NCBI RefSeq assembly: GCF_900106075.1
Contig: NZ_LT629794.1
Coordinates: forward strand, 2,501,501-2,565,500
Length of the DNA: 64,000 bases
Origin: Polaribacter sp. Hel1_33_78
Lineage (GTDB): Bacteria; Bacteroidota; Bacteroidia; Flavobacteriales; Flavobacteriaceae
Direction of reading: 5' to 3'
This document shows positions 31,836-53,339 of the stretch, piece after piece. Below the pieces are notes generated by a model, which had not been told where the DNA came from, did not search any database, and saw only the letters and a list, made by a program, of their open reading frames with translations. The position numbers were made by a program, and so were the translations under genes. Every line of letters starts with the position of its first letter. The first letter of the stretch is position 1.

Positions 31836-31853
31836 TAGCCTAAACAAGACCAA
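31836..31853 (-). promoter_or_regulatory. Candidate sigma-54 promoter for the GMC dehydrogenase operon
   Basis: On the minus strand TTGGTCTTGTTTAGGCTA has GG (31851-31850) and GC (31839-31838) exactly 12 bases apart, as required for -24/-12 promoters. The -12 element AGGC is weaker than TTGC. Predicted start about 31826, leader about 41 bases. Confidence 0.5.
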
Positions 31854-31926
31854 AGTTATGCCAAAAACACAATTGAAATAAAGTGTTAAATATCAATTAA
31901 TTAAAATCAATATTAATTATCAGATA

Positions 31927-31961
31927 TTCCGAATATCGGAATTGTATTCCTAAAAACGGAA
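31927..31961. promoter_or_regulatory. Paired inverted repeats (candidate sigma-54 enhancer sites)
   Basis: TTCCGAATATCGGAA (31927-31941) and TTCCTAAAAACGGAA (31947-31961), start-to-start 20 bp, fit TTCCG-N5-CGGAA. They lie ~76 bp upstream of the candidate sigma-54 promoter. The same kind of pair precedes the FIST gene. Confidence 0.55.
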
Positions 31962-33173: not shown

Positions 33174-33182
33174 AATATATTC

Positions 33183-35005: not shown

Positions 35006-35065
35006 GATTTCTTATTTTTTAATGTTATCAATTCATTTTTTGATGTGATTTAAATGCTCCCGTAA

Positions 35066-37161: not shown

Positions 37162-37167
37162 AATCTA

Positions 37168-38328
37168 TTATTTTCTCAAATTTTCTAAATGAATTAATTC
37201 ATATTGTTTCAAATACTCTTTTGCCATATTTTTCCAAGAAAATTGTTTACTGCGTTCTAAACCTTTTTCACAAAGCGATTTTCGATACGCATCATCATTT
37301 AAAATTTTAACAATGGCTTCTGTAATTTCTTCGGATTTAAACGGATCTATAATATGAGCTGCATTACCAGAAACTTCTGGCATTGACGAGGTATTTGAGG
37401 TTATAACGGGCACATTACAAGACATGGCTTCTAACATCGGAATTCCAAAACTTTCTCGAAGCGAAGGATATAAAAAGATATCGCATTGTGCGTAAATAGC
37501 TGGTAAATCTTTATTAATAACGTAACCTGTTAAAACGATATTATTAATAAGCTTTGTGTCATTAATTTCAACTAACAGTTTATTAAGCTCAATTTTATCA
37601 TAATCTAAGATTACAAGTTTGTGACTTAAACCTGTTTGTTTTAAAAAGTCTGAAAATGCTTTTAAAGTTCCTTTTGTGTTTTTTTTAGGATCAGTATTTC
37701 CTATGAAAAAGAAATAGTTGTCTGGTAAATTATAAACCTCCTTTACCCGCTTCAGTTCATCTTTATTGGTAACAGGTTTAAAGTGCTCACTTACGCCATT
37801 ATAAATAGCATCCAATTTATTGTCACCTTTAATACCAAAAAAATCTCCTATTCTATTTTTCTCAAAAAGAGATACTGTAATTACTTTTTTGCTCTTTTTT
37901 ACAACGCAAGGCACGACCAATTTCCGGTAGATACTTCCAAATTTTTGATAGGTGCTTGCGCTACTTTTTAGTGTTTTCAAATAACTTCTTTCCATATATA
38001 TAATATCATGAAGAATCGTGATTAATGGAATATCTGTAAAAAATGGAACGGTATTACTTGTGCAATGTAAAATATCGCATTCATATTCTTTTGCTGCTTT
38101 TGGCAATGCAATTTGCTCCCAAGTTGGGTAAGAACAACCATTTAATTTTATGATTTTAAAATTTGATGTTTCTTGCAACACAGAATTATCTTCATCTGGC
38201 TTTACAAAGATGAAGTATTCATTTTTATGGTCTATAAGTTGAAGGTTTTTAATAAGCTCCAAAGCAACCATGTCCATTCCATGCTTCTTTTTACGAAAAA
38301 TACGTTGACCTTCTATTCCTATTCTCAT
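37168..38328 (-). CDS. Glycosyltransferase family 4
   Basis: 386 residues with a GT-B fold. MRIGIEGQRIFRKKKHGMD at the N-terminus, donor-site FFIGNTDPKKNTKGTLKAF and the EX7E motif in ESFGIPMLEAMSCNVPVITS. It belongs to the mannosyltransferase-like GT4 group common in EPS clusters. About 405 bases separate it from the upstream polymerase gene, the only sizeable gap in the operon. Confidence 0.92.
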   Translation of the reverse strand: MRIGIEGQRIFRKKKHGMDMVALELIKNLQLIDHKNEYFIFVKPDEDNSVLQETSNFKIIKLNGCSYPTWEQIALPKAAKEYECDILHCTSNTVPFFTDIPLITILHDIIYMERSYLKTLKSSASTYQKFGSIYRKLVVPCVVKKSKKVITVSLFEKNRIGDFFGIKGDNKLDAIYNGVSEHFKPVTNKDELKRVKEVYNLPDNYFFFIGNTDPKKNTKGTLKAFSDFLKQTGLSHKLVILDYDKIELNKLLVEINDTKLINNIVLTGYVINKDLPAIYAQCDIFLYPSLRESFGIPMLEAMSCNVPVITSNTSSMPEVSGNAAHIIDPFKSEEITEAIVKILNDDAYRKSLCEKGLERSKQFSWKNMAKEYLKQYELIHLENLRK

Positions 38329-38381
38329 GATATATTGTGTTTCAAAAGGTACTTGTTTACTAAGTTAAGCTTGATGTCGTT

Positions 38382-38672
38382 TCACAATTTTATTTCTATA
38401 TTTAGAGCAGGGCTCTGAAAAAACAGAGCGTGTTTCTCGCTTGTTAAAGTATTCTTGAAAGATTCTGATTCTAAAAACATTTTATAATTTTCTTGACAGA
38501 GCGGAGGCTGTTCTGATATTCTAGCAGCAGCAACAGCAAGCTGATTGTATGCAGTTCCTAAGCAGAACACATCGGATTTAGAAATGTATGCTTTTGCTCT
38601 ATAATTGCGATTGTTAATACTCGAATTTTGAAGTATTACAGTATTTAAGTCCTTTATATTTCTATAATTCAT
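38382..38672 (-). CDS. Small hypothetical protein in EPS operon, doubtful
   Basis: 96-residue frame filling the gap between the polymerase and GT4 genes. The middle (DVFCLGTAYNQLAVAAARISEQ then PLCQENYKMF) is encoded by DNA visibly richer in G and C than its neighbours. I recognise no family, signal or membrane segment. The 3' part contains repeated AGAGC/GCTCT hairpins, so the region may instead be a structured RNA. Coding status is uncertain. Confidence 0.35.
   Translation of the reverse strand: MNYRNIKDLNTVILQNSSINNRNYRAKAYISKSDVFCLGTAYNQLAVAAARISEQPPLCQENYKMFLESESFKNTLTSEKHALFFQSPALNIEIKL
38404..38430. repeat. Alternating GCTCT/AGAGC hairpin
   Basis: GCTCTG (38412-38417) pairs with CAGAGC (38424-38429) around an A6 loop (U6 on the transcribed minus-strand RNA). 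A further AGAGC at 38404-38408 can pair with the same GCTCT, giving two mutually exclusive hairpins inside the EPS operon. Confidence 0.45.
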
Positions 38673-38734
38673 GGAGTAGATTTAAGGATATTTATTATTA
38701 TATTTTTAATACTAAATATAGTATTAGGTATATG

Positions 38735-40216
38735 CTATGTAGCAATTAATTCAGGTTCTTTCTCTATAATAGGCTCTTCAAAAATTTGTGGATTTGACAT
38801 GAGCGCCATGGATGCATATATTAATAAACCGGTAGGCATACCACCTAATACACCATTTCCATAGGACGCCAACATAACTCCTACCATCCCTGAAATTAAC
38901 GCACTCATTTTTAACTTTGTTATTGGATCTCGAATTCTGAACATGACTTTAAAAGAAGCCACTCCAATAACGTAAAACAAAATACATAGATGCAATATCA
39001 AGCCAATTATACCCATCTCTGCCCAAATCATAACGTACCAGCTATCTGTGGCGACATGTGAAAGAAATGCATTTGGTAAAAAACGCAGTGCCTTATCGCC
39101 CGCATGACCAATACCGCCTCCAAATGGTCTTGAGGCAAGATACCCTTTTAGGATTTGCTGATTTGCTTTTCTGATTAGTAAAGATGGATTATTAGGATCA
39201 AAGCCAGTTCTCATTCTTCTTATTTGGGCATTACCATTGGCGATCATCGTAAATTTAAAAAACACAAATAAGAGTACGACAAGTAATATACCAGTGCCAA
39301 GCAACCTAATATTTCTCCTTAAAACAAAAAATGTCATAAAACCTGCGAAAGGAACTGCTATAGAACCTCTTGTGCCTGATATCATCATTCCATATAAGCC
39401 CAATATTCCGGCGATAAGAAAAAAGATTCTAGGAAACCCCTTTTTAGCCATGGAGAATATAATAAATACGACTCCGGAATATCCTTGATTACCTCCAAAT
39501 TGGCCTGCATCACTAAAAAATGAAAACACTCTTAATTTACCAAATAATATATGCGTTACGGCACCTCCTCTATCCAACCATGCTTGCTCTGCAGTGTCAA
39601 CCCCAAAAACCATTTGTCCGATTCCTTTAAGCGTTGCAAGTATAGAAAAAGCACCCCAAAGATATAAAAATGTATCTAGCCTTTTATTAGTGTTTATAAG
39701 CATGAACGTAAGAATAATAAAGAAAAAGAAATAAAATCCAGTACCTCTGCCAGCAATCCAGGGTTCTATCATTCTAGCTTCAGGGTTTGCGAGTTGTAAT
39801 ATAAAATATACTAACCAAACCGCAGCTAAAATTGTAATATCCTTATTTGCCGGGGACCAATCAACCCGATCTCTAAATCTAGAAAAAATAAGCGCTAAAA
39901 AGGTTAAAATCATAAGCCCATCTATACCAAAACCTAATGGCAGATCTTTTACATAGCGTCCAATGCCAAGCACTATAAAATTGTAACCAATCGCCGTATA
40001 AAAACCAATAATGGGATTTTTAAATACTGTATAGATGTAAATGCTACCACAGAAGAGAGCCAACACCAAACCTATACCTGCAATCCCCATTTTAGCAAGT
40101 AATAATGCTATTAAAGCTATGCTTCCAAATAATAATAGAATAACCCTTGGTTTAGCTAAACTAGCAGAACCTGATATCTTGTCAAAAGGGTTTATATGGT
40201 TATTATTTGTGGTCAA
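38735..40216 (-). CDS. Wzy/O-antigen ligase-like polysaccharide polymerase
   Basis: 493 residues with about twelve hydrophobic segments. The Wzy_C (O-antigen ligase/polymerase) region includes the periplasmic segment GYLASRPFGGGIGHAGDK before the last helices. In Wzx/Wzy-dependent EPS systems this protein polymerises lipid-linked repeat units in the periplasm. The next gene upstream is the flippase, one base away. Whether it is polymerase or ligase cannot be told from sequence alone; the context favours polymerase. Confidence 0.85.
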   Translation of the reverse strand: MTTNNNHINPFDKISGSASLAKPRVILLLFGSIALIALLLAKMGIAGIGLVLALFCGSIYIYTVFKNPIIGFYTAIGYNFIVLGIGRYVKDLPLGFGIDGLMILTFLALIFSRFRDRVDWSPANKDITILAAVWLVYFILQLANPEARMIEPWIAGRGTGFYFFFFIILTFMLINTNKRLDTFLYLWGAFSILATLKGIGQMVFGVDTAEQAWLDRGGAVTHILFGKLRVFSFFSDAGQFGGNQGYSGVVFIIFSMAKKGFPRIFFLIAGILGLYGMMISGTRGSIAVPFAGFMTFFVLRRNIRLLGTGILLVVLLFVFFKFTMIANGNAQIRRMRTGFDPNNPSLLIRKANQQILKGYLASRPFGGGIGHAGDKALRFLPNAFLSHVATDSWYVMIWAEMGIIGLILHLCILFYVIGVASFKVMFRIRDPITKLKMSALISGMVGVMLASYGNGVLGGMPTGLLIYASMALMSNPQIFEEPIIEKEPELIAT

Positions 40217-40217
40217 C

Positions 40218-41594
40218 CTAATTTGTTTTATTAAATGTGATAAAGCGATTCTGAGTTACTTTATTAAAAAGAGTTTTATAAAATTTAATTCCACTAGAAA
40301 AGATTTCTTGATAAGACAAGGTTAATTCCTTATTTAAAAAGTACATGCCCATCCATATGCCTATTATTGTAAATAGGATAGAGGTAACTGCAACAAGAAT
40401 TAAGGATTTAAAAACAAAAATTGCTATAAAATCTCCTATTAAATTAGCCGCTACCATAATAAATACTTTTACGGCGTTAATGTTAGGCTTATTGATACTA
40501 TCCAACCCAATACCTGTCATTCGATCTATTGGCAGTAAGAGTCCATAAATAGAAAACACACGCACGATATCTACAACATTAAACCCTGTAATTGGATCAA
40601 CTTTTAAATATTGTTCACCTGAAAGAATTAAAACTAAATAATCTGCAAAAACAAAAGTTACTAAACTGATAATTACAAATAAATACGTGAGTGCACCAGA
40701 ATAGGTGTAAAATAAATCTTTCACTTCTTGAACTCTGCCTTGAACACTAGCTTTAGACATTTTTGGGAAAGCGGTAGCAACAAAACTTCGCAAAGGTATT
40801 TGTTGCAATTCGGTAAGTTTTAAAGGAATACTATAAAGTGCTACGGCGGCGCTTCCCATCGGGCTCAAACTAATAATTACGGTATCTGCACTTCTTAATA
40901 AGTTAGTGCCTATTAAGGTAAACGTCGTATATTTTCCAAAATTTAATAATGTTTTATTGGTATCGGAACTTGCTTGTGTAATATATTTTGTTCCATCCCA
41001 GCCTAAAGTAATAGACACTAGAGATGTAATAGCATTAATAATAAGTAGGGCAATAACCAATTCGTTTAATTCCATTTCGATAAAAAAGAAATGAACTAAA
41101 ACCACTAAAAAAAAGAGTCCACTATTTATTGATTTTATAATTAAAATTTTATCATATTTTTGGTCTGCCTGCAATACAACAAGCGCATTATTCCAAGGAA
41201 GATTTAAAAAAGCTAATAATGGATACCATTTGAAAAAAAGATTATAACCAGAATTACTAATGGCATCATTAAAGAAAGAGTAGCAAAACACTAAGATAAT
41301 TGCTACAAGAACAGTGGCTCCTAAACCAATTAAAGCATTTGACCCTATTAGTTTAATTCTAGAGTCTTCATCTGCTCCAGATAAAAAACGAATTAAACCT
41401 GTATTTGTAATTCCAAATCGAAACATTTCGACAAAAGAACCTCCCGTTATAAATAATACCCATTCACCAAAAACATCTAATGATAAACTTCTGGCCAGTA
41501 AAGCGAAGCCTCCAATACCTAAAATAGCAATAACAAGATTTCCTGTTAATGACAGAAAGTTATCTTCTCGAGCTATTTTTTTAATCATTTTCAT
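40218..41594 (-). CDS. Wzx-type polysaccharide flippase
   Basis: 458 residues with about 12 membrane helices. The start (EDNFLSLTGNLVIAILGIGGFALLARSLS) and the segment LLRSADTVIISLSPMGSAAVALYSIPLKL are typical of the MATE/MOP-superfamily Wzx flippases. It moves undecaprenyl-pyrophosphate-linked repeat units to the periplasmic side. It sits between the Wzz-like and Wzy-like genes, completing a Wzx/Wzy system. Confidence 0.9.
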   Translation of the reverse strand: MKMIKKIAREDNFLSLTGNLVIAILGIGGFALLARSLSLDVFGEWVLFITGGSFVEMFRFGITNTGLIRFLSGADEDSRIKLIGSNALIGLGATVLVAIILVFCYSFFNDAISNSGYNLFFKWYPLLAFLNLPWNNALVVLQADQKYDKILIIKSINSGLFFLVVLVHFFFIEMELNELVIALLIINAITSLVSITLGWDGTKYITQASSDTNKTLLNFGKYTTFTLIGTNLLRSADTVIISLSPMGSAAVALYSIPLKLTELQQIPLRSFVATAFPKMSKASVQGRVQEVKDLFYTYSGALTYLFVIISLVTFVFADYLVLILSGEQYLKVDPITGFNVVDIVRVFSIYGLLLPIDRMTGIGLDSINKPNINAVKVFIMVAANLIGDFIAIFVFKSLILVAVTSILFTIIGIWMGMYFLNKELTLSYQEIFSSGIKFYKTLFNKVTQNRFITFNKTN

Positions 41595-41606
41595 CAGTTC
41601 TTTTTT

Positions 41607-43985
41607 TTAAATTTGATTTTTTGATAAAAACTGAAACTGAAATACTGATTTTATTTTTTTTCTGAACTTGGTACGCTTTTTTGGTAAATCTCCTAACACG
41701 GATTCGATTTCATTTAAATTAACTCCATTTACAATAATTTTAAGATTTGAACCGCAAGCTTCTCTTAAATTAATAATTGCAGATTCATCAGCATCTGACC
41801 AAGTTCTATTAGAACGACACACTAGAATATCTAAATCAGCATTCGCAATTAATTCTGCAGGATAATTAGAATAGATTAAAGCAGGTATTTCTATAATGAC
41901 AAACTCTGGTTTAAAATCCAAAGTAATATTATTTGACTCCAAAATATCAGTATAAGTTCTAGCTCCGTAAAACTTGCTATTCATAGCATAAGAATAGTGT
42001 TCTGAAAAATCAAGATAAGTAGATGCATCTGCCAAGAATAAATTATCTAGATCTATACGAGGATCTGGATAACCTAAAATTTTATTTATGATAGGAGATT
42101 TTCGTTTGTGTGTTATTGACTCTTGTTTATTATCATGATTGAGCAGTAATACTTTTTTACCCTCTTGTTTTAAAGTCTTCGCAATATTACTAGCTAAAAC
42201 CGTTTTACCCTCTAATTTTTGATTACTCAATACGATGATAGTTTTTATCTTTTGTTTTGAATTGTGCACACCAATATGTTGTAATATGTTTTGTGTGATA
42301 ATCTCAATTAATCTTTTTTGAATAAAAGGCAAATTGAGACCTCCTGCATCTAATACTATCTTAGGCATCATTCCTAAGGAGGTAAGTCCTGTTTCTTTAC
42401 TAGCTTTGATAGAATTTCTAAGGGTGTCATCAAAATACTCCATGACAAAAATAATCCCTAGAGTAAAAAGTCCTCCTAAAAAAGCCGCCGCAATAATAAG
42501 AATCAATCTTTTTGTTGGATTTGGGGATAAGGGATAAAATGGAGCATCAACAGTTTTTAAACTAGATGACAAGTCACTGTCTTGTAATTTTAGCTTGGCT
42601 AAATTCAATCCATGTAAGATTTCTAAGTAACCCTGTTCTGAAATAGAAATTTCACGTTCTAATCTTTTCATATTAGCCCCAGCAGGAGCATAATTTGCAA
42701 ATGTTTTCTGAAAAGCGTTACTCTGACCTCCTTTAATTTTAATTTTTGCTTTTAGCTCCTCAGACTCAACCACATTATTTATCCAATCTGGAAGTACTTT
42801 AGAAATTGGCAGACCGTCAATAGTATTTTGATATGAATATAATTCGTCAACATCTTTTTTTATTTCGTTAATTAAAAAATCGGCCTGTTTTTGTAAGTCC
42901 GTAATTTTTAAAAAATTCATTTCTGTATTACTTGTCTCGAGCTCAGCTTGCACTAGAGCTATTTTAAAATTCAAATTTCCTAAGACTTTCTTTTTATCAA
43001 GAATGCCATTATTCTTTGACTGAATAACTTCTTGCAACTGTAACTTCTCTTCTAATGCCTTTGTACCTGCCTCAAGTCCAGCCAACTCTGCTATATTATT
43101 CTTATAATCAACCTCCATATCTTCTTTTACCAAAGCAACAGCTCTACTCTGCTCATAATAATTTATAATATTGGTGCTTTTATTGAACTCAAGTAATTCC
43201 TCTTCTGCTAGTTTTAATTTTTTTTTGGCCTTATCTAGTTCATTTTGAAAATATTTAACCACGCCATCTGAACTATTTTCCTTTATATGTTTATAATTAA
43301 TTAAACTAACACGATTATAGATAGCTAATGTTTGCTGACAAATTCCTGGGTCATCAACCGTATAACTTAATTTTAGTAAGTCACTATTGTTAATTCTTTG
43401 AACCTCTATTTTAGATATTGCGTTAAGAGAATAATGATTATCATCTTCATAATTTAACAGTTCATATATAAAGTTATCACTGCCACTTCTCATTAATGTC
43501 AATAAATTTTGAACAGTTTTTTCGTAATTGTGCCTGTCTATTTCTTCTGGAAACGGATCACTAACAGCTAATATTTCGTCTGTCATAACATTGCCATTGG
43601 TTCCATTTTCAATATAATTGTATATTTCTTCAGGAACTTTACTCTTTAGCTTCTCATATAATTCCTTTGAAATATATTTGGGATTTGCTTCTGGCAACAT
43701 AAGATGAATCGCTAATAATCTGACAGCAACCTCTTCTTGAGTCTCCCTTGATTTAATAATATTAATTAAATTATCAAAAGCCGAATTAGTTGCTTGATAA
43801 TTATACTTTTTATCCATTTCAATAGATGAACCTGTAGCCAAGCCTGTATATAAAATGGTTTGAGAAGAAAATTCATAAGATGGGTTCATTGTAAGCAAAA
43901 TAACCATCAAACCAAGAAACAATGGAACTACAATTAATAGAACCAAATGCTTTAAAATTAACCTTACAAATTCAATTATAGTCAT
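41607..43985 (-). CDS. Wzz-type polysaccharide co-polymerase with degenerate BY-kinase-like domain
   Basis: 792 residues. A membrane helix near residue 15-35 is followed by a Wzz periplasmic region with long coiled coils (~230-480), a second helix (~500-520, RLILIIAAAFLGGLFTLGIIF), and a cytoplasmic ATPase-like domain from about residue 580. The P-loop-like SNQKLEGKTVLASNIA is present. The Walker A' aspartates appear as LLNHDN, the Walker B as IIEIP instead of IIDTP, and the C-terminus lacks a tyrosine cluster. It probably controls chain length and export without being a classical tyrosine autokinase. It lies 4 bases after the TolC-like gene. Confidence 0.87.
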   Translation of the reverse strand: MTIIEFVRLILKHLVLLIVVPLFLGLMVILLTMNPSYEFSSQTILYTGLATGSSIEMDKKYNYQATNSAFDNLINIIKSRETQEEVAVRLLAIHLMLPEANPKYISKELYEKLKSKVPEEIYNYIENGTNGNVMTDEILAVSDPFPEEIDRHNYEKTVQNLLTLMRSGSDNFIYELLNYEDDNHYSLNAISKIEVQRINNSDLLKLSYTVDDPGICQQTLAIYNRVSLINYKHIKENSSDGVVKYFQNELDKAKKKLKLAEEELLEFNKSTNIINYYEQSRAVALVKEDMEVDYKNNIAELAGLEAGTKALEEKLQLQEVIQSKNNGILDKKKVLGNLNFKIALVQAELETSNTEMNFLKITDLQKQADFLINEIKKDVDELYSYQNTIDGLPISKVLPDWINNVVESEELKAKIKIKGGQSNAFQKTFANYAPAGANMKRLEREISISEQGYLEILHGLNLAKLKLQDSDLSSSLKTVDAPFYPLSPNPTKRLILIIAAAFLGGLFTLGIIFVMEYFDDTLRNSIKASKETGLTSLGMMPKIVLDAGGLNLPFIQKRLIEIITQNILQHIGVHNSKQKIKTIIVLSNQKLEGKTVLASNIAKTLKQEGKKVLLLNHDNKQESITHKRKSPIINKILGYPDPRIDLDNLFLADASTYLDFSEHYSYAMNSKFYGARTYTDILESNNITLDFKPEFVIIEIPALIYSNYPAELIANADLDILVCRSNRTWSDADESAIINLREACGSNLKIIVNGVNLNEIESVLGDLPKKRTKFRKKIKSVFQFQFLSKNQI

Positions 43986-43989
43986 CTCT

Positions 43990-44739
43990 TTAATTTAAGC
44001 GTGTTAAACCAAGTACAAACCCAGCCATATCTTCTAACAATAGCTTGGTGGTAATAAATTCAGACATTGCTTTTGCGTAATCTGCTTCCATACTTTCTGT
44101 TATTCCAGCTATCCTTACGTACTCGGCTATTGGTACTATTCCATTTCTAAATTCTTTTTCAACCATTTGCATATTTACACGACCGTCACCTAAACTTCTC
44201 GATTTTATTTGAAGTATTTTTTGCTTTAATATTAAGTCTTGATATAGGACTATTACCCTTTTTCTTAATTGTTCCTTTTCAAATTCTAACATATCTTTTG
44301 CCGCATCAACTTCGAATTTCGCCAATCTAATTTGATTTTTGCGATTAAGACCATCAAACAAAGGAAACTTCACAAAAAAACCGACACTATAATTAAACTG
44401 TTTGCTTGTTGTTAAAGCTGCTGTATTAGAAAAACCATCTTCACTGGTCGCAAAATTGCTTAAATTTCCATATCTAGTATCAGCTTGAACTCCTAAATTT
44501 TTAGACCAATATATACGCTCCGAGGCTAATGCAGATTTCGTAACTCCAATATTATTCTTCCGGAAACGCACCATAGCACTTCGTTTCAATACAGAATCTA
44601 TAACAACTTCAAGTGAAGGGAATTTAAATTCATCTTTTATAATAGACACACCTTCTGGTTCGGGTGTTTGAGCCATTAATGAAGGCATGAAGCAACTAAG
44701 CACTATAACGATAATTATAAATTTTAAAAAAAAACTCAT
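43990..44739 (-). CDS. Short TolC-like protein in EPS operon
   Basis: 249 residues, about half the length of a normal TolC subunit. Signal peptide ending LMAQ. One TolC-type unit is visible: LEVVIDSVLKRSAMVRF, a beta hairpin (FNYSVGFFVKFPLFDG) and the long helices RLAKFEVDAAKDMLEFEKEQ and VEKEFRNGIVPIAEYVRIAG. A trimer would need to dimerise to make a barrel, or the protein assists export otherwise. No polysaccharide outer-membrane Wza-type protein is in the window. Confidence 0.8.
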   Translation of the reverse strand: MSFFLKFIIIVIVLSCFMPSLMAQTPEPEGVSIIKDEFKFPSLEVVIDSVLKRSAMVRFRKNNIGVTKSALASERIYWSKNLGVQADTRYGNLSNFATSEDGFSNTAALTTSKQFNYSVGFFVKFPLFDGLNRKNQIRLAKFEVDAAKDMLEFEKEQLRKRVIVLYQDLILKQKILQIKSRSLGDGRVNMQMVEKEFRNGIVPIAEYVRIAGITESMEADYAKAMSEFITTKLLLEDMAGFVLGLTRLN

Positions 44740-44765
44740 TGTTAAAATCTTTTATATATTTAATA

Positions 44766-45965
44766 TCACACTGCTGACTTTTGCAATAGTGCTGGAATTG
44801 TTCGTAAAATTAGCTTTACATCGTACCAAAATGAAAAATTATTATCGATGAAGTGATGTGCATACTCATTATCTAATTCTATTCTTTCAAGCTCTGACAT
44901 CGAACCACCTTTTCCTCTTAACTCAACCTGCCATAAACCAGTAATACCAGCAGGAGCCAAAAATCTTTTTGATAAGGTATCGGCTGTAAGCATTTCTGCT
45001 TCGTAAACTGGTAAAGGACGGTTACCAACAATAGACATGTCACCTTTTAAAACATTTATAAGTTGTGGTAGTTCGTCTATACTCGTATTTCTGATAAACT
45101 TACCTACCTTAGTTACGCGAGGATCATCAAGAATTTTTACAAAAGTAGAATTGTTCTTGGAGGTTTCGTTCTTTTGAACATTGTGCCAATAGTCACAAAT
45201 ATGATACTTATCTACATACATCATTGGAGAACATGTTTCTCCCATTGCTAATTTAAAGCACTTAGGGCATTGGGTATTCATAGAATCAGTTGTTGAACTG
45301 GAAGCTGTGTTGTACTGGTTTTTTTCTTTTGCTAGTTTTTTTAGCATCGCATCAGAACCTGTTCGCATGGAACGTAGTTTATAAAAATTGAACGTTTTAC
45401 GTCCAACTCTTTTTGAAGTATAATAAACTTTACCTTTAGATTCCAATCGGATAGCAATAATTACTACTAAAAGAAAAGGAGCCGCCACCACTAAAACACT
45501 AGATGCAACAAAAACATCAAAAATGCGTTTTGAAAATGGCATTTTATACCCTTTCTTCTTTCCATTTTTAACGGGTGAATAAAATGTCTTTCTCTTCAAA
45601 TCACGAAGGAATTTGATCCGCTTCACTAAGCTTTCGGGTGAAACAGAAGTAGAAATAAAATAATCATCCACTCTTTTGCTAAACGCAAGCTTAAATACTT
45701 CGCTATTAAACTTTTTATCCAAAAGAATAAATGGAACTTCATCGTAAATATTTTGTTTTTTTACCCAATCAAACAAAAACATACCATTAGTCTCTGGTAA
45801 ATCAAAATCGCAAATAATTGCGTCTAGTTTCCTCGTATTATTAAGGAAATTTTCTGCTAACAAATTATTATTCATAACTTTAATAGAAATAGACTCTTGT
45901 TTCTGAAGGTTTTCCAAAAACTGTTGCTCATTTCCTACATATAATATATTTAAATAAGATTTCAT
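44766..45965 (-). CDS. Initiating sugar transferase with receiver-like N-terminus
   Basis: 399 residues. Residues 1-~120 resemble a two-component receiver: Asp53 in CDFDLPETNGMFLFDW is at the phosphoacceptor position, but the acidic pair is replaced (YVGNEQ) and the conserved Lys is missing (DDYFIS). Residues ~143-399 are a polyprenol-phosphate sugar-1-phosphate transferase (WcaJ/WbaP family): FSKRIFDVFVA, membrane helix, YYTSKRVGR, KLRSM, then SIDELPQLINVLKGDMSIVGNRP and GITGLWQV. An insertion with four cysteines (233, 236, 245, 257) interrupts the transferase and looks like a zinc knuckle. It starts repeat-unit assembly on undecaprenyl phosphate. Confidence 0.9.
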   Translation of the reverse strand: MKSYLNILYVGNEQQFLENLQKQESISIKVMNNNLLAENFLNNTRKLDAIICDFDLPETNGMFLFDWVKKQNIYDEVPFILLDKKFNSEVFKLAFSKRVDDYFISTSVSPESLVKRIKFLRDLKRKTFYSPVKNGKKKGYKMPFSKRIFDVFVASSVLVVAAPFLLVVIIAIRLESKGKVYYTSKRVGRKTFNFYKLRSMRTGSDAMLKKLAKEKNQYNTASSSTTDSMNTQCPKCFKLAMGETCSPMMYVDKYHICDYWHNVQKNETSKNNSTFVKILDDPRVTKVGKFIRNTSIDELPQLINVLKGDMSIVGNRPLPVYEAEMLTADTLSKRFLAPAGITGLWQVELRGKGGSMSELERIELDNEYAHHFIDNNFSFWYDVKLILRTIPALLQKSAV

Positions 45966-45999
45966 TAATAGGTATTATTTATTATATATTTTTGAATCA

Positions 46000-46401
46000 C
46001 TACCAATTTATAGTATAATGAATTGGAAAAAGATTCTTTTTTACCAATTCTTCAAGCTCTTCAGGATTAAACGGTTTTGTTAGATAATCTTGTGCTCCAA
46101 GTTTATAGCACTTTATACGCTCTTTACTTTCAGATTTTGCCGACAACATGATAATGGGTGTATGCTTTGTAAAGCCTCTATCACGAACTTGAACTAAAAA
46201 TTCATATCCATCCATATTAGGCATTTCAATATCACTGATAATAAGATCAGGAAGATTGCCTTCCAACCATTCGAGGGCGTTTATACCATCATTAAACGAA
46301 ATAACATCATACTCTTCAGAAAGAAAATTCTCTAACAAAAGGCATATCGTTATTTCATCATCAACCACTAGTATTTTTTTTCTCATAACTTTAATTAACA
46401 T
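46000..46401 (-). CDS. Single-domain response regulator
   Basis: 133 residues: a complete receiver with VVDDE, phosphoacceptor Asp57 in ISDIEMPNMDGYEF, MLSAK and the Lys of YLTKPF. There is no output domain, so it probably works by protein contact or as a phosphorelay intermediate. Its ATG overlaps the stop of the HPt gene by one base (TAATG); a Met at position 6 is an alternative start. It is at the head of the EPS operon, between the HPt and sugar transferase genes. Confidence 0.92.
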   Translation of the reverse strand: MLIKVMRKKILVVDDEITICLLLENFLSEEYDVISFNDGINALEWLEGNLPDLIISDIEMPNMDGYEFLVQVRDRGFTKHTPIIMLSAKSESKERIKCYKLGAQDYLTKPFNPEELEELVKKNLFPIHYTINW

Positions 46402-46775
46402 TACAGTTTAAAATCATTTTTCATTTTAGATATTACTTGATGAACTAAATCCATCAAAATATCAATTCTGGATTGTAAATTAACGATTTCAAGTTCCCCT
46501 AAAAATAAAGCTTCTATTACTTTTACTTCATTTTCTAATTTAACCGAGCCAAAATATGTAAAAGACGGTTTTATTTTATGAACTATTGCTCTTATTTTTA
46601 AAAAATCATTTTCAGCACTTGCAAACTTTAATTCTAAAATTGACCTTGAAGTTTGACGCATAAAAGCTTGAATCATTTTTTCAATCTGTTTCTCATTTCC
46701 TCTGCACATTTTTTTTATTAGGGATAAATTATATAATTGCCCTTCATGTTTATTTTTGTTTGTTTTTAATTTCAT
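46401..46775 (-). CDS. Stand-alone histidine phosphotransfer (HPt) protein
   Basis: 124 residues. His66 in AIVHKIKPSF is the phosphorylated residue of the HPt four-helix bundle. The region LYNLSLIKKMCRGNEKQIEK and what follows closely resembles the C-terminal HPt of the hybrid kinase at 49866-53339 (LYNLSKLKKIARGNKEFIHK, AIAHRIKPSI), so the two are paralogues and probably share a receiver partner. First gene of the EPS operon. Confidence 0.88.
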   Translation of the reverse strand: MKLKTNKNKHEGQLYNLSLIKKMCRGNEKQIEKMIQAFMRQTSRSILELKFASAENDFLKIRAIVHKIKPSFTYFGSVKLENEVKVIEALFLGELEIVNLQSRIDILMDLVHQVISKMKNDFKL

Positions 46776-47362
46776 AATTCATTGCAATTGAAATAATGGC
46801 ACAAAACCATTTTTAAATATAGTAATAAAGAAAAACCTGATTTGAAAAATCTATGATTCATTTCAAAAGCAGCATGTAGTATTACCTTTAACAATATTAA
46901 AAATCAAAAAAAATGAAATGATTTTAAACTATTTTAAAATTCTAAATGCTTTTTGTATTTCTTACACTTACCAAATAGACAAAACCAATGCCAAAACGTA
47001 AACAGCTCATTACTAAGGATTAACAATTTCACTGAAAGCATTTTATTCTATAAAATGGAATAAACCCAATTATTGGAGTGAATATAAAACTTTTTTTTAT
47101 TAAACTATTTAAAAAATAAAGACTTGTTTTTATTCGACCATTTTAGTTTTTAAGAATGAATAATTGATATTAATTCTTTTTTCAGTGCTTTAAAATCCTA
47201 CGAAACCAAAAAAATAAAGAAACCTCTTTTTGAGATTAATCTTGAAAGGATAATCGAGAGGTTATCGTGGATTTAAAAAAAAATCTACATTCCGGAAAAT
47301 ATTTTATATTTTGGAAAATTTCTTTATATTGCAATAAACAAGTTAAACAATGAACTTTTTTA
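46776..47362. other. 587-base divergent regulatory region
   Basis: Control region between the leftward EPS operon and the rightward sigma-54 regulator. No gene is seen. It contains an inverted repeat AACCTCT (47221-47227) / AGAGGTT (47257-47263) around a 29-base loop with an internal GATTAATC, and a degenerate tandem repeat at 47290-47323. I find no -24/-12 promoter with correct spacing for the EPS direction. Confidence 0.6.
47290..47323. promoter_or_regulatory. Degenerate 19-bp tandem repeat before the sigma-54 regulator
   Basis: TTCCGGAAAATATTT (from 47290) is echoed 19 bases later by TTTTGGAAAATTTCT (from 47309). The left halves fit the TTCCG half of the enhancer motif seen elsewhere; the right halves do not. 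The position, about 40-70 bases before the ATG, would suit autoregulation. Confidence 0.35.
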
Positions 47363-48715
47363 ATGAATAAATATACTATTTTTATTGTAGAAGACGATCC
47401 TTGGTATAGCCAAATATTACAATACCACCTTAGCTTAAATCCGGATTATGAAGTAACTCTTTTTAGTTCAGGTCAGGAATGTCTTTCTAAAATGTCCTTA
47501 AAACCAGATTTAATAACATTAGACTTTTTATTACCCGATTTAAGAGGTGATAAAATCTATAAAAAGATAAGAGAGGTTAATCCAAATGTCCCAGTAATCA
47601 TGATTAGCTCTCAAGAGGATATTGCGGTTGCAGTGAAATTACTTAAAATGGGAGTTAGTGATTATATCATAAAAGATGAGGCAACAAAAGATTTATTATG
47701 GAATAGCATTATAAGAATACGAGAAACTCAAAATTTAAAAAAAGAAGTAGCGTATTTAAAAGAAGAATTAGGGCAAAAGTATTCATTTGAAAATACCATT
47801 ATCGGAAAAAGTGATTCAATAAAAAGAATTTATGGGATGATGGGAAAGGCTATTAAAACAAATATTAATATTTCAATTACAGGAGAAACCGGAACTGGTA
47901 AAGAATTAGTTGCAAAGGCTATTCATTATAATAGTTCTAGAAATAAAAAGAATTTTATTGCTGTTAATATGGCTGCCATTCCTTTCGAATTGATTGAAAG
48001 CGATCTATTTGGACATGAAAGAGGAGCTTTTACCGGAGCTATTAAACAAAAAATAGGGAAATTTGAAGAAGCTAATGGAGGGACTTTGTTTTTAGACGAA
48101 ATTGCAGAACTTAATCTGAGCATCCAAGCTAAACTGCTCCGAGTATTACAGGAGCGAGAATTCGTTAGAGTTGGCGGAAATAAAAACATTAAATTAGATG
48201 TTCGCTTAATTATTGCCACCCATAAAGATCTTGCAGAAGAGGTACGCAAAGGAACTTTTAGAGAAGACTTGTTTTTTCGTGTTATGGGTTTACCCATAAA
48301 ACTTCCTCCATTGCGTGAAAGGAGTGAAGATATTTTAATCCTCGCAAAATATTTTGTAGATGATTTTGCCAAAGAAAACAATATGGGAATTATTCATTTT
48401 GCTCAAGAAGCAAAAACTAAATTATTGCATTATTATTTCCCAGGTAACGTAAGAGAGTTAAAAGCAATTATCGACTTAGCAGCCGTTTTGTGCGAGAACA
48501 ATAAAATAACCGCAAATGACATCACTTTTACAACTTCCAAGAACAAAGAAGTTTTTATGAACGAGCAAAAAACTTTAAAACAATATACTCGTGAGATTAT
48601 AAAATATTATCTTAAGAAAAACAATAATGACGTCATAGCCGCTGCTAAAGATTTAGACATAGGTAAAAGCACAATTTACAAAATGTTGAAAAACGGAGAG
48701 TTAGACTCAGATTAA
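47363..48715 (+). CDS. Sigma-54-dependent response regulator (NtrC family)
   Basis: 450 residues. Receiver (residues 1-120) with EDD at 10-12 and phosphoacceptor Asp54 in LDFLLPD. AAA+ sigma-54 interaction domain (~145-375) with GETGTGKE, the intact sigma-54 contact ESDLFGHERGAFTGA, LFLDEIAEL and the arginine-finger region RVMGLPIKLPPLRERSEDI. C-terminal Fis-type HTH (NNNDVIAAAKDLDIGKSTIYKML). It should bind tandem inverted repeats and activate sigma-54 promoters when phosphorylated. It is transcribed away from the EPS operon. The paired TTCCG-N5-CGGAA sites nearby are its likely targets (inference). Confidence 0.95.
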   Translation: MNKYTIFIVEDDPWYSQILQYHLSLNPDYEVTLFSSGQECLSKMSLKPDLITLDFLLPDLRGDKIYKKIREVNPNVPVIMISSQEDIAVAVKLLKMGVSDYIIKDEATKDLLWNSIIRIRETQNLKKEVAYLKEELGQKYSFENTIIGKSDSIKRIYGMMGKAIKTNINISITGETGTGKELVAKAIHYNSSRNKKNFIAVNMAAIPFELIESDLFGHERGAFTGAIKQKIGKFEEANGGTLFLDEIAELNLSIQAKLLRVLQEREFVRVGGNKNIKLDVRLIIATHKDLAEEVRKGTFREDLFFRVMGLPIKLPPLRERSEDILILAKYFVDDFAKENNMGIIHFAQEAKTKLLHYYFPGNVRELKAIIDLAAVLCENNKITANDITFTTSKNKEVFMNEQKTLKQYTREIIKYYLKKNNNDVIAAAKDLDIGKSTIYKMLKNGELDSD

Positions 48716-48723
48716 GAGCCTTT

Positions 48724-48757
48724 TTCCGAAAAATGGAACAATTTCCGGAAATCGGAT
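48724..48757. promoter_or_regulatory. Paired inverted repeats upstream of the FIST gene
   Basis: TTCCGAAAAATGGAA (48724-48738) and TTCCGGAAATCGGAT (48743-48757), start-to-start 19 bp, fit TTCCG-N5-CGGAA with one mismatch each. They end 65 bp before the GG of a -24/-12 promoter, a normal enhancer distance for an NtrC-family activator. Confidence 0.6.
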
Positions 48758-48819
48758 TAAATAACCACCTAAGCAACACACAATAAATTGAACTACAGGT
48801 TATTACAGAAATATTTCAT

Positions 48820-48836
48820 ATGGTATGATTTTAGCC
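48820..48836 (+). promoter_or_regulatory. Sigma-54 (-24/-12) promoter of the FIST-kinase genes
   Basis: ATGGTATGATTTTAGCC has GG at 48822-48823 and GC at 48834-48835, exactly 12 bases apart, and resembles TGGYAYG-N4-TTGC. Predicted start about 48847, 26 bases before the FIST ATG. Confidence 0.65.
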
Positions 48837-48872: not shown

Positions 48873-49745
48873 ATGAATACATCTCTTTATAAATTTACGG
48901 AAAAAGCTTGGGGAAATAATCCCAATATCCAATTAATTGATGATAAGAAGTTTCAGCTGGCTTTGTGTTTTGCTTCAAAATCAATACTGGAAAAAGAGAC
49001 TATTTACAGCAACATTAAATTAAAATTTCTAATCACTGAAGTAGCGATGTCTATTACGACAACTGAAATTTATCATTATTACGAGAGGGATGATTCACTT
49101 ATTTGTACCGCAATTCAATTTGACAAAACAACAATTGAAGCAACTACTGTTCATATTAAAAACTATCAAAACTCCTATGCCAAAACAGTCAGACTAGCTA
49201 AAAAATTACCGAAAAAAAATCTCTTTCATATATTGATACTCCCTGACAGTAGCTTAGTAGGTAGAAGCGACCTTGTAAAAGGATTAACAGCACAAATAGA
49301 TAAAAATGTACCCGTTACAAGAGGCTTAACTGGTGATGACGCAAATTTCAACGGCACATTAACAGGGTTAAATAAACAACCAAAAGACGGTGAAATTATT
49401 CCCATCAGTTTTTATGGCAACTATTTAACAATGACACATCAATCTTTGGGAATCTGGGATACTTTTGGTTTGAAAAAAAAATTTACAAACTCTTGCGAAA
49501 ATAAATTATTAAAATTGGAAAATCAAAATGCATTAGCATTGCAAAAAAAATATTTAGACTCTGAATCAAAAAAACTACCAGAATCTGGACTATTATTTCC
49601 ATTATCAGTAATCATTCCTGGAGATACAAAACCAATTATACAAACCATTCTTTCAACTAATAAGAAAGATAGTAGTATGTCTTTTGCCAGGGATGTTCCT
49701 ATAGGATCTAAGGTTAGATTTATGAAAGCAAATTTCACCTTCTAA
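48873..49745 (+). CDS. FIST-domain sensor protein, C-terminally short
   Basis: 290 residues. FIST_N-like region (~15-185; LALCFASKSIL, then VTRGLTGDDANFNGTLTGL) followed by the first part of FIST_C (SFYGNYLTMTHQSLGIWDTFG to DVPIGSKVRFMKANF). FIST proteins are soluble sensory domains; some, named NosP, bind heme and sense nitric oxide beside a histidine kinase. Here the usual last ~80-100 residues of FIST_C (GFYSYGE-type region) are missing and not found in other frames downstream. The heme or ligand residues cannot be assigned by eye. It precedes an HNOBA-type kinase by 120 bases and has a sigma-54 promoter. Confidence 0.8.
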   Translation: MNTSLYKFTEKAWGNNPNIQLIDDKKFQLALCFASKSILEKETIYSNIKLKFLITEVAMSITTTEIYHYYERDDSLICTAIQFDKTTIEATTVHIKNYQNSYAKTVRLAKKLPKKNLFHILILPDSSLVGRSDLVKGLTAQIDKNVPVTRGLTGDDANFNGTLTGLNKQPKDGEIIPISFYGNYLTMTHQSLGIWDTFGLKKKFTNSCENKLLKLENQNALALQKKYLDSESKKLPESGLLFPLSVIIPGDTKPIIQTILSTNKKDSSMSFARDVPIGSKVRFMKANFTF

Positions 49746-49865
49746 TGAAGTCGGGAGTTGTCAATTAAACAATCAAATCTTTCCAATTACTTCATTTTAT
49801 GAAAATTAATTGAAAGTCGTGATAACGGAAATACTCAAGAAATATTTAAAGTAAGCTGATAACCT

Positions 49866-52800
49866 ATGACCCATCCTTTTTCATTTAACACAGAACAATT
49901 AAATCGTCTATTTCCCTTCTATATATTAATAAACCGAGATTTAAAGGTTATTGCTCTAGGAAAATCTCTGAGTAAAATATGTGATTTGAAAAATGTACAA
50001 CAATTCAATCATTATTTTAACATTCCAAAACCTCTTACACCTATTAACTCCATCGATGATTTAATAAAATTAAATAATCAATTAGTAGTTTTGGAACCAA
50101 CAACCTACGCTAATTATAAGCTAAGAGGCCAGTTTGAATATTTGAAAGATACAAATCAAGTATTGTTTGCAGGATCTCCTTGGTTTAGTTCTATGGAACA
50201 AGTAAAAGAAAACAATCTTGTAATTGATGATTTTGCCAAGCATGATCCTCTTATTGATTTGCTTCATGTGATGAAATCTCAAGAAACTACTAATCATGAC
50301 CTTAAACAGTTAATTTCTACTATCAATAAGCAGAAGAAGGATTTAAAAAATGTAAGCAAGAAGGTGCGTGATATCGCTTTATTTCCTCAGCAAAACCCAG
50401 ATCCATTATTTAGGATTAACTATCAAGGAGATATTATACAAAATAACCCTGTAGCAGAAAAACTTAATTTTATTGAATATGAAGGAAAAACTTACAGAAA
50501 TGATGTTTTTTTTAAATTAATTTTATCTCTTAACTTCAAAAATGCGACAAGGTGGACTATTGAAGCCGATTCAAACAATATTAATTATTCATTTGCATTT
50601 ATTGCAATGCCTCATGAAGGGTATATTAATATTTACGGAAGAGACATTACTCAACGAAAAAAATATTCTCAGGAATTAGAAAAATTATCACTTATTGTTC
50701 AGCAAACAATAAATGCTGTTGTTATTACCGATCCAACAGGAAAGGTAGAATGGGTTAATAAAGCCTTTGAAAAAGTGACTGGCTATACTTTATCTGAAGC
50801 CAAAGGCCAAACTCCTGGAAGTTTTTTACAAGGAGAGGAAACCAAACAAGAAACCAAGGCTTATATGAAACAACAGATTCTAAAATCTGAACCCTTTTCT
50901 TGTGAAGTTTTTAATTACAAAAAATCAGGTGAAGGATATTGGATAAGAATAAATGGTCAGCCCATTTTTGATAAACAAGGAAAAGTAATTAATTTTTTCG
51001 CTATTGAAGAAGATATTACATTCGAAAAACAAGCACAACAAAAACTTAAAGATCACGGAATTTTCTACGAACAGATCTTAGACAATATCCCTGCAGAAAT
51101 CGTCGTATTTAATAAAAAACATGAATTTCTCTATTTGAACCCGCAAGCAATTATTGATTCAACTCTTCGAAAATGGCTTATTGGTAAGAAAGATGAAGAC
51201 TATATGCGAAAACAAAATAAACCTTTAGCTCTTCTTGAGAGCAGAAGAAAATTATTTAATACCATTCTAGAATCTAAAAAGCTAAAAAGTTGGGAAGAAG
51301 AATTGAAACAACCAGACGGGACAATCAAATATATCTTGCGATATTTTTACCCTGTACTTAATAGTATTAATGAGGTAGCTTTAGTAATTGGCTATGGTGT
51401 TGATATTACTCAAAGTAGAAAAATTCAACAACAAATAATACAAAGTGAAAAAAGGTACAGAGACGTAATTGACAACTGTATGGCATTAGTAACCACACAC
51501 GATTTGGGTGGGAGATTATTAACAGCAAACCCGATGATCACTAAACTATATGGGTACAAAGAAGATGAAGTAATCGGTCGTTCATTAAAAGATTTTACGC
51601 TATCTGAGGACAAAATTAAGTTCAATGAAAATTATTTAAATAAAATAAAACAAAAAAAAGAAGCTTCAGGAATATTTAGAGTTGTTCACAAGAACGGCAA
51701 TATTACATATTGTCTATACAATAATTACCTGAAAGAAGAAAAAGGAGAAGAGCCTTATGTAATTGGTTTTGCAGTTGATATTACTGGTCGAATTTTAGCA
51801 GAAAAAGAACTAAAAATTGCTAAAAAAATCACAGAAGAACTAGCACAAACTAAACAAACTTTTTTAACTAACATGAGCCATGAAATTAGAACACCAATGA
51901 ATGCTATTATTGGTATGAGCCGCCAATTACATAAAACAGATTTAAATAAAGAACAACATATTTATTTAGATACTATTTCAAATGCTTCTGAAAGTCTCCT
52001 GGTGATTATTAACGACATACTCGACCTTTCAAAATTAGAATCAGGCAAACTATTATTTGAGAAAATTGGCTTTGAACCAAAGAGTGTAGTAGAAAGAGTA
52101 ATTCAGGTAATGAGCCATAAAGCTAAAAAAAAGGGACTTAAATTGACTAATTCTTTATGTGATAGAAGATTATTTTCTATATTAATTGGCGACCCCTTTA
52201 GAATTAACCAAATATTACTCAACCTTGTTTCAAATGCAATTAAATTCACAGCTATTGGTAGCGTAGATATCCGTTGTAAAGTTTTAGAGGAAAATGATGC
52301 AATGCAACAGATAGAATTCGCAGTCACGGATACTGGTATTGGAATGGAGCCTATATTTTTAAAAAATTTATTTAAAAAATTTATTCAGGAAGACGCATCA
52401 GTTGCTCGACGTTTTGGAGGTACTGGTTTAGGAATGAGCATAACAAAATTCTTAGTTGATGGTATGGATGGTGATATTTTAGTAGAAAGTCAAAAGAATA
52501 AGGGAACGACTATCAAAATCATATTTAATTTTGAAAAAGGAACAGAATTTGATCTGATAGAAAAGAGTATTACTTCTGTAAATACCAAAATTTTAAAAGG
52601 TAAAAAAATATTGGTTGTTGATGATAATGAGATGAATAGGATGGTTGTAGATCTAATTCTAGATGAATATGAAGTAGAAGTTACAGAAGTTGAAAATGGT
52701 TCATATGCCTTAGAGCAGATAAAAAATAATACATTTGATCTAGTACTTATGGACCTGCAAATGCCAATTTTAAATGGATATGAGGCCACAAAAATAATTA

Positions 52801-53339
52801 GAGAAGAATTGAAAATGAATATTCCTGTTATCGCATTAACAGCAAATGCAATAAAAGGTGAGCAGGAAAAATGCATCAACCTAGGAATGAATGATTACTT
52901 GTCAAAGCCATTTGAAGAAGAAGAATTCCTTAAAGCCATTTGTAATTCGTTAGAGAGACCTCAAAAGCTCATTCTAGAAAATTTTAAAAATGAAAAGCAA
53001 CTGTCATTATATAATCTAAGTAAATTAAAAAAAATTGCAAGAGGAAACAAAGAATTTATCCATAAAATGATTCTAATATTTATTAATCACACACCTAAAT
53101 CGCTTAATGAATTAAAGGCTGCATATGATATCGGGGATTATGACAAAGTTAAAGCTATAGCGCATAGAATTAAGCCATCTATAAACACAATGGGAATAGA
53201 TGTCTTAAGAGATGAAATTAAAGCGCTTGAAAAGAACGCAGAAAAGCATCAATCTTCAGGAGATCTAAATAAACTTATTTCTAAAATTTCTTATGTTATT
53301 GAAAAAGTCGTTGATGAACTAAGAAAGCAATACTTATAA
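49866..53339 (+). CDS. Hybrid histidine kinase with HNOBA-like N-terminus, PAS repeats, receiver and HPt
   Basis: 1157 residues, no membrane segment. In order: an HNOBA-like domain (~1-150; LFPFYILINRDLKVIALG, then LFAGSPWFSSMEQV and DFAKHDPLIDLL), a coiled coil, about four PAS domains (~170-645; for example VVITDPTGKVEWVNKAFEKV), HisKA with His672 in MSHEIRTPMNAI, HATPase (LLNLVSNAIKFT, DTGIGM, FGGTGLGMSI), a receiver with Asp963 in LMDLQMPILNGYEA, and an HPt with His1100 in AIAHRIKPSI. HNOBA domains associate with heme-NO-binding partners. With the FIST protein it probably forms a cytoplasmic sensory phosphorelay, passing phosphate to the regulators at 46000 or 47363. The gene has no clear promoter of its own and is probably transcribed with the FIST gene. 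Confidence 0.92.
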   Translation: MTHPFSFNTEQLNRLFPFYILINRDLKVIALGKSLSKICDLKNVQQFNHYFNIPKPLTPINSIDDLIKLNNQLVVLEPTTYANYKLRGQFEYLKDTNQVLFAGSPWFSSMEQVKENNLVIDDFAKHDPLIDLLHVMKSQETTNHDLKQLISTINKQKKDLKNVSKKVRDIALFPQQNPDPLFRINYQGDIIQNNPVAEKLNFIEYEGKTYRNDVFFKLILSLNFKNATRWTIEADSNNINYSFAFIAMPHEGYINIYGRDITQRKKYSQELEKLSLIVQQTINAVVITDPTGKVEWVNKAFEKVTGYTLSEAKGQTPGSFLQGEETKQETKAYMKQQILKSEPFSCEVFNYKKSGEGYWIRINGQPIFDKQGKVINFFAIEEDITFEKQAQQKLKDHGIFYEQILDNIPAEIVVFNKKHEFLYLNPQAIIDSTLRKWLIGKKDEDYMRKQNKPLALLESRRKLFNTILESKKLKSWEEELKQPDGTIKYILRYFYPVLNSINEVALVIGYGVDITQSRKIQQQIIQSEKRYRDVIDNCMALVTTHDLGGRLLTANPMITKLYGYKEDEVIGRSLKDFTLSEDKIKFNENYLNKIKQKKEASGIFRVVHKNGNITYCLYNNYLKEEKGEEPYVIGFAVDITGRILAEKELKIAKKITEELAQTKQTFLTNMSHEIRTPMNAIIGMSRQLHKTDLNKEQHIYLDTISNASESLLVIINDILDLSKLESGKLLFEKIGFEPKSVVERVIQVMSHKAKKKGLKLTNSLCDRRLFSILIGDPFRINQILLNLVSNAIKFTAIGSVDIRCKVLEENDAMQQIEFAVTDTGIGMEPIFLKNLFKKFIQEDASVARRFGGTGLGMSITKFLVDGMDGDILVESQKNKGTTIKIIFNFEKGTEFDLIEKSITSVNTKILKGKKILVVDDNEMNRMVVDLILDEYEVEVTEVENGSYALEQIKNNTFDLVLMDLQMPILNGYEATKIIREELKMNIPVIALTANAIKGEQEKCINLGMNDYLSKPFEEEEFLKAICNSLERPQKLILENFKNEKQLSLYNLSKLKKIARGNKEFIHKMILIFINHTPKSLNELKAAYDIGDYDKVKAIAHRIKPSINTMGIDVLRDEIKALEKNAEKHQSSGDLNKLISKISYVIEKVVDELRKQYL

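Follow-up and report, generated by a model that had tools for sequence, protein, structure and literature searches.

The segment at positions 48,724 to 48,836 of the window (the whole 64,000-nucleotide stretch of the Polaribacter sp. Hel1_33_78 genome analyzed here) is best explained as a sigma-54 promoter whose paired enhancer is bound by the activator encoded next to it (47363–48715), within one local regulon. We put the probability of this reading at about 0.86. The architecture of the element is not random, is conserved in another genus, and is associated with the activator gene. The original prediction had correctly recognized a real-looking regulatory switch, with its letters slightly off. 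Its reading as a sigma-54 promoter with paired enhancer sites is supported by the sequence and extends beyond the FIST gene to a second and a probable third copy.

Two dyads, TTCCGAAAAATGGAA (48724–48738) and TTCCGGAAATCGGAT (48743–48757), are located on the plus strand upstream of the FIST gene and were identified by direct reading, a dyad search, and matrices. Each is 15 bp long, and their starts are 19 bp apart. A pair with this spacing had been predicted, and the exact formula given for it, TTCCG-N5-CGGAA, was not found, since each dyad deviates from it by one mismatch. The pair ends 63 bp ahead of the T in TGG of TGGTATGATTTTAGCC (48821–48836, plus strand; direct reading and matrices), the -24/-12-like sigma-54 promoter of the FIST–kinase operon. 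GG and GC separated by 12 bases, as anticipated, are read directly in TGGTATGATTTTAGCC, and the ATG of FIST follows at 48873. Compared with the 16-base pattern TGGYAY-N5-TTGCW, the promoter keeps GG-N10-GC and has two mismatches. An IHF-like element with seven of nine consensus bases is found at 48781–48793 (plus strand), a position common to other promoters.

The neighboring gene (47363–48715, plus strand) was expected to encode an NtrC-family regulator bearing GAFTGA, and it does. Its product contains a receiver, a GAFTGA-bearing AAA+ domain that is complete in Pfam (Sigma54_activat, 1.8e-68), and a C-terminal HTH, and it thus fits an NtrC-family bEBP with receiver. No HTH model in Pfam matched this protein; the HTH is assigned from the ortholog alignment and from full-length matches to NtrC-type NCBIfam models below their cut-offs. 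In the alignment, the HTH helix reads LDIGKSTIY in six of the seven activator orthologs and LDVGKTKIY in that of G492, and GSFTGA replaces GAFTGA in the G451 and G224 orthologs. The G224 ortholog (L097:2428–3783) retains the AAA+ and HTH parts, and by eye its receiver is without the acidic residues of the others. Ahead of the activator gene, half-sites of the form TTCCGG...TTTTGGAAAA were noticed by eye at 47283–47320, as was a TTGG...TTGCAA block common to the window and G397. The 47283–47320 sites are possible elements of autoregulation or of a housekeeping promoter.

The other copies in the window were scored with matrices derived from a single relative, G397 (10 dyads and 6 promoters). The second copy is on the minus strand, upstream of the GMC operon. 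It comprises dyad 1, TTCCGTTTTTAGGAA (31947–31961), and a perfect dyad 2, TTCCGATATTCGGAA (31927–31941), both found by the dyad search and matrices; an IHF-like element matching all nine consensus bases (31891–31903); and, 63 bp from the pair, the -24/-12-like promoter TGGCATAACTTTGGTC (31848–31863; matrices and pattern). The first guess for this promoter, TTGGTCTTGTTTAGGC, was rejected because the comparison with G397 favored TGGCATAACTTTGGTC at the conserved distance. The operon consists of a gene of the gluconate 2-dehydrogenase subunit 3 family (31209–31784, minus strand; PF13618, 2.3e-28) and a GMC oxidoreductase gene (29521–31200, minus strand; PF05199 3e-24, PF00732 5.1e-12). The probable third copy (46978–47078, minus strand) precedes the exopolysaccharide operon and has a single good dyad. 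Matrices gave a degenerate dyad 1, CTCCAATAATTGGGT (47064–47078, 2.0 bits), dyad 2, TTCCATTTTATAGAA (47046–47060, 15.4 bits), and, 52 bp from dyad 2, the -24/-12-like promoter TGGCATTGGTTTTGTC (46978–46993). The GMC and exopolysaccharide promoters carry GG-N10-GT, so they follow in part the -24 GG/-12 GC rule stated in the available text of PMC1569441.

The exopolysaccharide cluster itself (31983–46775, minus strand) was delineated from ORFs, Pfam, and translations, and its gene order suggests a single transcription unit. It starts with an Hpt-like gene at 46775. A sugar transferase, a receiver, OEP, and Wzy_C (an O-antigen ligase-type protein) were matched above the Pfam cut-offs, and the Hpt-like product and a 792-aa protein below them. 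The latter was read as a putative protein of the chain-length/tyrosine-kinase type, and translations of other genes were read as translocase-like and glycosyltransferase candidates. The arrangement, with two strong copies plus a probable one around a single exopolysaccharide cluster, indicates a regulon and not a lone FIST promoter, and one neighboring activator probably turns on the whole cluster. No copy was found upstream of the DUF4842-type gene of the window, nor any pair upstream of its remnant of a phosphoribosyltransferase-like gene. At 38382–38672, a 96-aa ORF is similar to the beginning of the 314-aa phosphoribosyltransferase-like gene of G397, which has its own promoter copy.

Orthologs of the activator at E ≤ 1e-100 are present in 7 of the 397 family genomes, this one included. 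The identities are 79% (G397), 62% (G257), 60% (G227), 59% (G451), 51% (G492), and 47% (G224). Among the 146 genomes of the genus, the matches listed reach at most 42% when its own is excluded. Conservation of the paired motif before orthologous FIST genes had been set beforehand as a test, and the motif is present in the nearest ortholog genome, G397, which belongs to a different genus. There the pair is located between the activator and FIST genes, with TGGCACAATTTTGGCC at the same distance as in the window, and the order is activator, pair, FIST (379 aa), H-NOX gene, and HNOBA kinase. The H-NOX gene of G397 (L085:7630–8172; PF07700, 1.8e-46), between FIST and the kinase, is absent at the equivalent place in the window. 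A second pair in G397 precedes the GMC operon, past the exopolysaccharide cluster, and further copies precede UDP-sugar dehydrogenase (UGD), Hpt-like, phosphoribosyltransferase-like, and DUF4842 genes. G227 has copies before UGD (47.5 bits) and an Hpt-like gene (44.9 bits); the name UGD was assigned in this analysis, and Pfam backs it for G397. A scan of named genomes covered 67 loci with best-segment identities of 51% or lower and revealed no close ortholog.

The association with the activator was analyzed in a case–control sample of 80 genomes, composed of the seven with the activator, G006, and 72 activator-less family genomes taken in list order. The dyad-plus-promoter pattern had 10 matches in five of the seven activator genomes and one match each in 8 of the 73 others. 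A partner dyad 18–21 bp upstream (9.2–16.8 bits) accompanied 8 of these 18 matches, all in activator genomes: two in the genome under study (G000), three in G397, two in G227, and one in G224. The remaining 10 were rejected as promoters, as they are without the partner dyad and score -4.4 or lower at its place. With each genome counted as independent, the full architecture is present in 4/7 genomes with the activator versus 0/73 without it (p = 2.2e-5), and in 3/6 versus 0/73 when the training genome G397 is left out (p = 2.5e-4). The other three activator genomes (G257, G451, and G492) gave no full pattern match; G257 is 64% complete with a contig of 7.4 kb, and weaker matrix matches reach 36.3 bits in G451 and 31.5 bits in G492. 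A dyad pair is found in G492 (L094:10695–10797) just upstream of the activator gene, facing a divergently oriented gene whose product matches a receiver weakly. Strict pairs in G151, G384, and G535 were rejected as enhancers; they represent one conserved site in a long opposite-strand open frame and have no -24 element.

These data bear on an unlikely alternative, in which a different regulator of the genome, either a repressor or a further bEBP, binds to the dyads and the 47363 protein has its targets at other sites. RpoN is encoded in the genome (PF04552, 8.2e-51) and was found in all eight genomes examined, and some related bEBP (E ≤ 1e-60) is present in 143 of the 146 genus genomes. Despite this wide distribution, the full architecture tracks the orthologs of the 47363 protein. 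Moreover, G006, a member of the same genus whose best activator match is 40%, keeps the FIST–kinase pair and the exopolysaccharide genes and shows no dyad with one mismatch or fewer in its 20-kb stretch. The alternative draws on two further full-length sigma-54 activation domains in the genome, which were weighed as dyad binders through co-occurrence only, and on the 47363 protein being a predicted dyad binder.

The geometry was compared in 14 promoters, which were chosen among several candidates per stretch. Dyad 2 is separated from TGG by 52–55 bp in seven and by 62–63 bp in seven, and the two classes are approximately one helical turn apart. In the eight full matches of the case–control search, the gaps are 52, 55, 62, 62, 62, 63, 63, and 64 bp, and those of the ten rejected matches spread over 52–65 bp. 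An IHF-like element 22–24 bp after the pair was observed in many of the 14 promoters of either spacer class, with nine of nine consensus bases in three promoters and eight of nine in four at those offsets. The match summed over offsets 21–23 was 95 compared with a maximum of 82 in 5000 shuffles, which keep single-base composition only, for a consensus chosen after viewing the sequences. Proteins of the HU/IHF family are encoded by at least two genes in each of eight genomes, and IHF-assisted looping is established for sigma-54 promoters according to the available part of PMC7057263.

The base following the -12 G is C in 2 of the 14 promoters (both FIST), T in nine, and A in three; the -12 G itself is not independent evidence because the search pattern required it. 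The -24 consensus is TGGCAC/T, and 3 of the 14 promoters have a poor -24 element (TGGCAG, AGGTTC, and TGGGTT). The absence of the canonical -12 C in 12 of the 14 is what speaks for a still less probable alternative, in which the promoter is real and sigma-54 is uninvolved, TGGYAY-N7-G being part of another factor's site and transcription starting from a sigma-A or ECF promoter. This explanation would leave aside the agreement with the -24 consensus, the GAFTGA motif in the proposed activator, and the two helically spaced spacer classes. It also conflicts with GG-N10-GC, which is kept by both FIST promoters and by three candidates from Hymenobacter described below. Based on GG-N10-GC in the FIST and Hymenobacter sites, sigma-54 is the best reading, with the relaxed last base of the -12 element as an oddity of these promoters.

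The components of the element taken singly are common. With up to two mismatches, the window contains 12 single dyads compared with 9.6 expected, which is ordinary, and 61 single -24/-12-like sites compared with 46.6 expected, a mild excess (4 of 100 shuffles reach 61). In the 3.23-Mb genome, 40 dyads have one mismatch or fewer, and they form only two close pairs, both in the window and 17 kb apart. A degenerate paired pattern matched twice in the genome and in none of the 145 other genomes searched in the genus. Scored with the G397 matrices alone, the full two-dyad composite ranked the GMC copy first (48.7 bits) and the FIST copy second (38.9 bits), and the maximum in 3 Mb of random sequence generated as a first-order Markov chain was 25.0 bits. 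In a search with the G397 matrices for dyad 2 plus promoter (spacers of 52–54 or 62–64), exactly three matches of at least 15 bits were obtained in the window: GMC (34.4), exopolysaccharide (28.9), and FIST (22.4). Random sequence of the same kind (6.4 Mb) gave 17 matches of at least 15 bits, one of at least 22 bits, and a maximum of 23.0 bits. A loose composite pattern was useless as a test because it matched 162 of the 397 genomes; its reversed control also matched in many, and five of its eight matches in G397 are inside the exopolysaccharide cluster. That an AT-rich intergenic region was over-read by chance agrees with the frequencies of single dyads and -24/-12-like sites and is barely credible in view of the composite scores and the cross-genus conservation at the same genes.

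The FIST-domain protein (48873–49745, plus strand) has 290 residues compared with 379 in both nearest homologs, and its shortened FIST_C match in Pfam spans 67 of 131 positions. Across 28 other homologs, 110 columns are conserved; the protein departs from 53 of these and has lost 11 of 16 glycines, whereas its two nearest relatives show 31 and 30 departures and three and two lost glycines in the same columns. A stretch resembling the C terminus of the 379-aa homologs is found in a different frame at 49690–49810, downstream of the shortened FIST. The FIST coding sequence also contains a 29.1-bit composite match (49576–49688) with AG instead of the -24 GG, which exceeds the random maximum and is probably due to chance. 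The next gene (49866–53339, plus strand) encodes a 1157-aa hybrid histidine kinase with HNOBA, PAS, HisKA, HATPase, receiver, and Hpt domains in Pfam. It is the probable sensor kinase of the activator, a pairing suggested by the HNOBA kinases that adjoin the bEBP orthologs in G227 and G451. Since FIST is shortened and eroded, the kinase is probably the main product of the FIST promoter, which probably matters chiefly for this downstream gene, and a feedback loop onto the activator would thereby be closed. The sole H-NOX match of the genome is at another locus, beside a second FIST gene, and none is found at the window locus. That second FIST and H-NOX pair (L221:2486–6042; G000:C1 ~1.940–1.944 Mb) has an Hpt-like gene (just below the cut-off) and a receiver-like gene (from its translation) nearby.

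We propose the following mechanism for the sigma-54 promoter and its activator. Upon phosphorylation, the 47363–48715 protein would bind to the two dyads, which are two helical turns apart, and an IHF/HU-type protein may bend the DNA between the dyads and the promoter. The AAA+ ring of the activator would then contact the RpoN polymerase waiting at TGGYAY-N7-G and open the promoter, which would make transcription RpoN-dependent. The FIST promoter would feed back on the HNOBA-PAS hybrid kinase, the probable source of the phosphoryl group. The like architecture before the GMC operon and, half-degenerate, before the exopolysaccharide operon suggests that the activator runs one local regulon. As to the input, the neighboring genes and the available part of the NosP work (PMC12570481) hint weakly at nitric oxide or a related haem ligand.

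Plasmids of Hymenobacter swuensis and Aureispira anguillae (L223 and L224) also carry activator orthologs, in or near polysaccharide gene clusters. The Hymenobacter protein is 58.7% identical and is encoded amid glycosyltransferase genes. Its locus has three GG-N10-GC promoter candidates. With a dyad consensus fixed after viewing the sequences, pairs of dyads spaced by 19 bp were recognized 64 and 66 bp upstream of two candidates (0/2000 shuffles each, single-base composition kept), and the third has a weak pair (p = 0.06). The G397 matrices match the Hymenobacter locus weakly (25.5 bits; maximum in 1 Mb of first-order Markov random sequence, 20.7 bits). In the Aureispira locus, nothing reached 18 bits, and no -24-like site was found before the 13 genes examined.

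A wider reading is tentative, and we hold it at somewhat less than even odds: a sigma-54 exopolysaccharide switch may be distributed across Bacteroidota, in many cases tied to its locus, and may combine a specific operator code with a haem-associated input (FIST, H-NOX, and HNOBA kinase). The code would consist of two TTCC/CTCC dyads 18–21 bp apart, an IHF-like site phased with the dyads, two alternative promoter distances that differ by roughly one helical turn, and a -12 element relaxed to permit T, A, or C after the G. In the window, the activator, operator code, and target genes are found together, in connection with the synthesis of exopolysaccharide. The two helically spaced promoter distances, along with the third element in phase, allow the geometry of DNA looping to be tested directly.

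Among known systems, the control of PEP-CTERM genes by PrsK/PrsR and RpoN in Proteobacteria comes closest. The available text of PMC1569441 describes an enhancer (motif 1), a spacer averaging 62.8 bp (SD 10.6), and a -24/-12 motif 2. Like the window activator, PrsR is an NtrC-type response regulator, generally encoded close to exopolysaccharide genes, and the order of enhancer, spacer, and promoter is shared. However, motif 1 of PrsR is 17 nt long, ends in TTTACA, and is sometimes repeated, whereas the window has a pair of TTCC-N7-GGAA dyads. The PrsR motifs are reported there in Proteobacteria only, and the window is from Flavobacteriaceae; PrsK is described as transmembrane, and the kinase of the window carries HNOBA and PAS. 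The activator scores 364.6 bits with the PrsR model TIGR02915, below the cut-off of 502.6. TTTACA, the sole hexamer sought, is absent from all 14 stretches between dyad 1 and the promoter and occurs in two when 60 bp upstream are added. The window system thus appears to work like PrsK/PrsR and, as judged by sequence, is not of the same family. In Aquincola, PEP-CTERM genes are the targets and exopolysaccharide genes are seemingly not RpoN-regulated, according to the available part of PMC9850573.

Within the family, sigma-54 of Flavobacterium psychrophilum (SM4) has been characterized through -24/-12 promoters derived from mapped 5' ends, one of which was mutagenized (available text of PMC9723704). 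Three Sigma54_activat proteins are given for that species, and likewise three are encoded in the genome here. The targets there are envelope stress, protein quality control, and gliding, and no enhancer motif is described in that text. A cross-phylum comparison has linked exopolysaccharide genes to sigma-54 as a controller of the bacterial exterior (PMC3162934, in part), so the general connection with the cell exterior is already known; its main text, as available, mentions neither Bacteroid- nor Flavobacter- names and describes no such activator code. A phylum-wide prediction study of sigma-54 names targets in Flavobacteriia, and its available part contains no exopolysaccharide regulon of the window type (PMC12316311). 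The search of the open-access literature, with most subscription papers outside its scope, found no paper on the dyad motif or the regulon, and the Bacteroidota sigma-54 activators described in the accessible parts of the literature found lack such operator codes.

On the input side, the locus resembles those of the NosP (FIST) and H-NOX sensors. The genes for FIST, H-NOX (in G397), and the kinase are adjacent, and the kinase has an HNOBA domain, as compared with the available text on NosP (PMC12570481). Unlike in these systems, the FIST of the window is eroded and not the intact form expected of NosP, though a kinase gene adjoins it, and H-NOX is encoded elsewhere; haem binding here is putative. 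The NosP output described in that text is an HD-GYP regulator tied to cyclic-di-GMP, whereas the neighbor in the window is a sigma-54 activator. From the presence of FIST, H-NOX, and HNOBA-kinase genes in a relative, it is predicted that a haem ligand such as NO alters transcription of the polysaccharide genes. If this is true, the sensing of a gas would act on polysaccharide synthesis directly at the level of transcription and not via cyclic-di-GMP.
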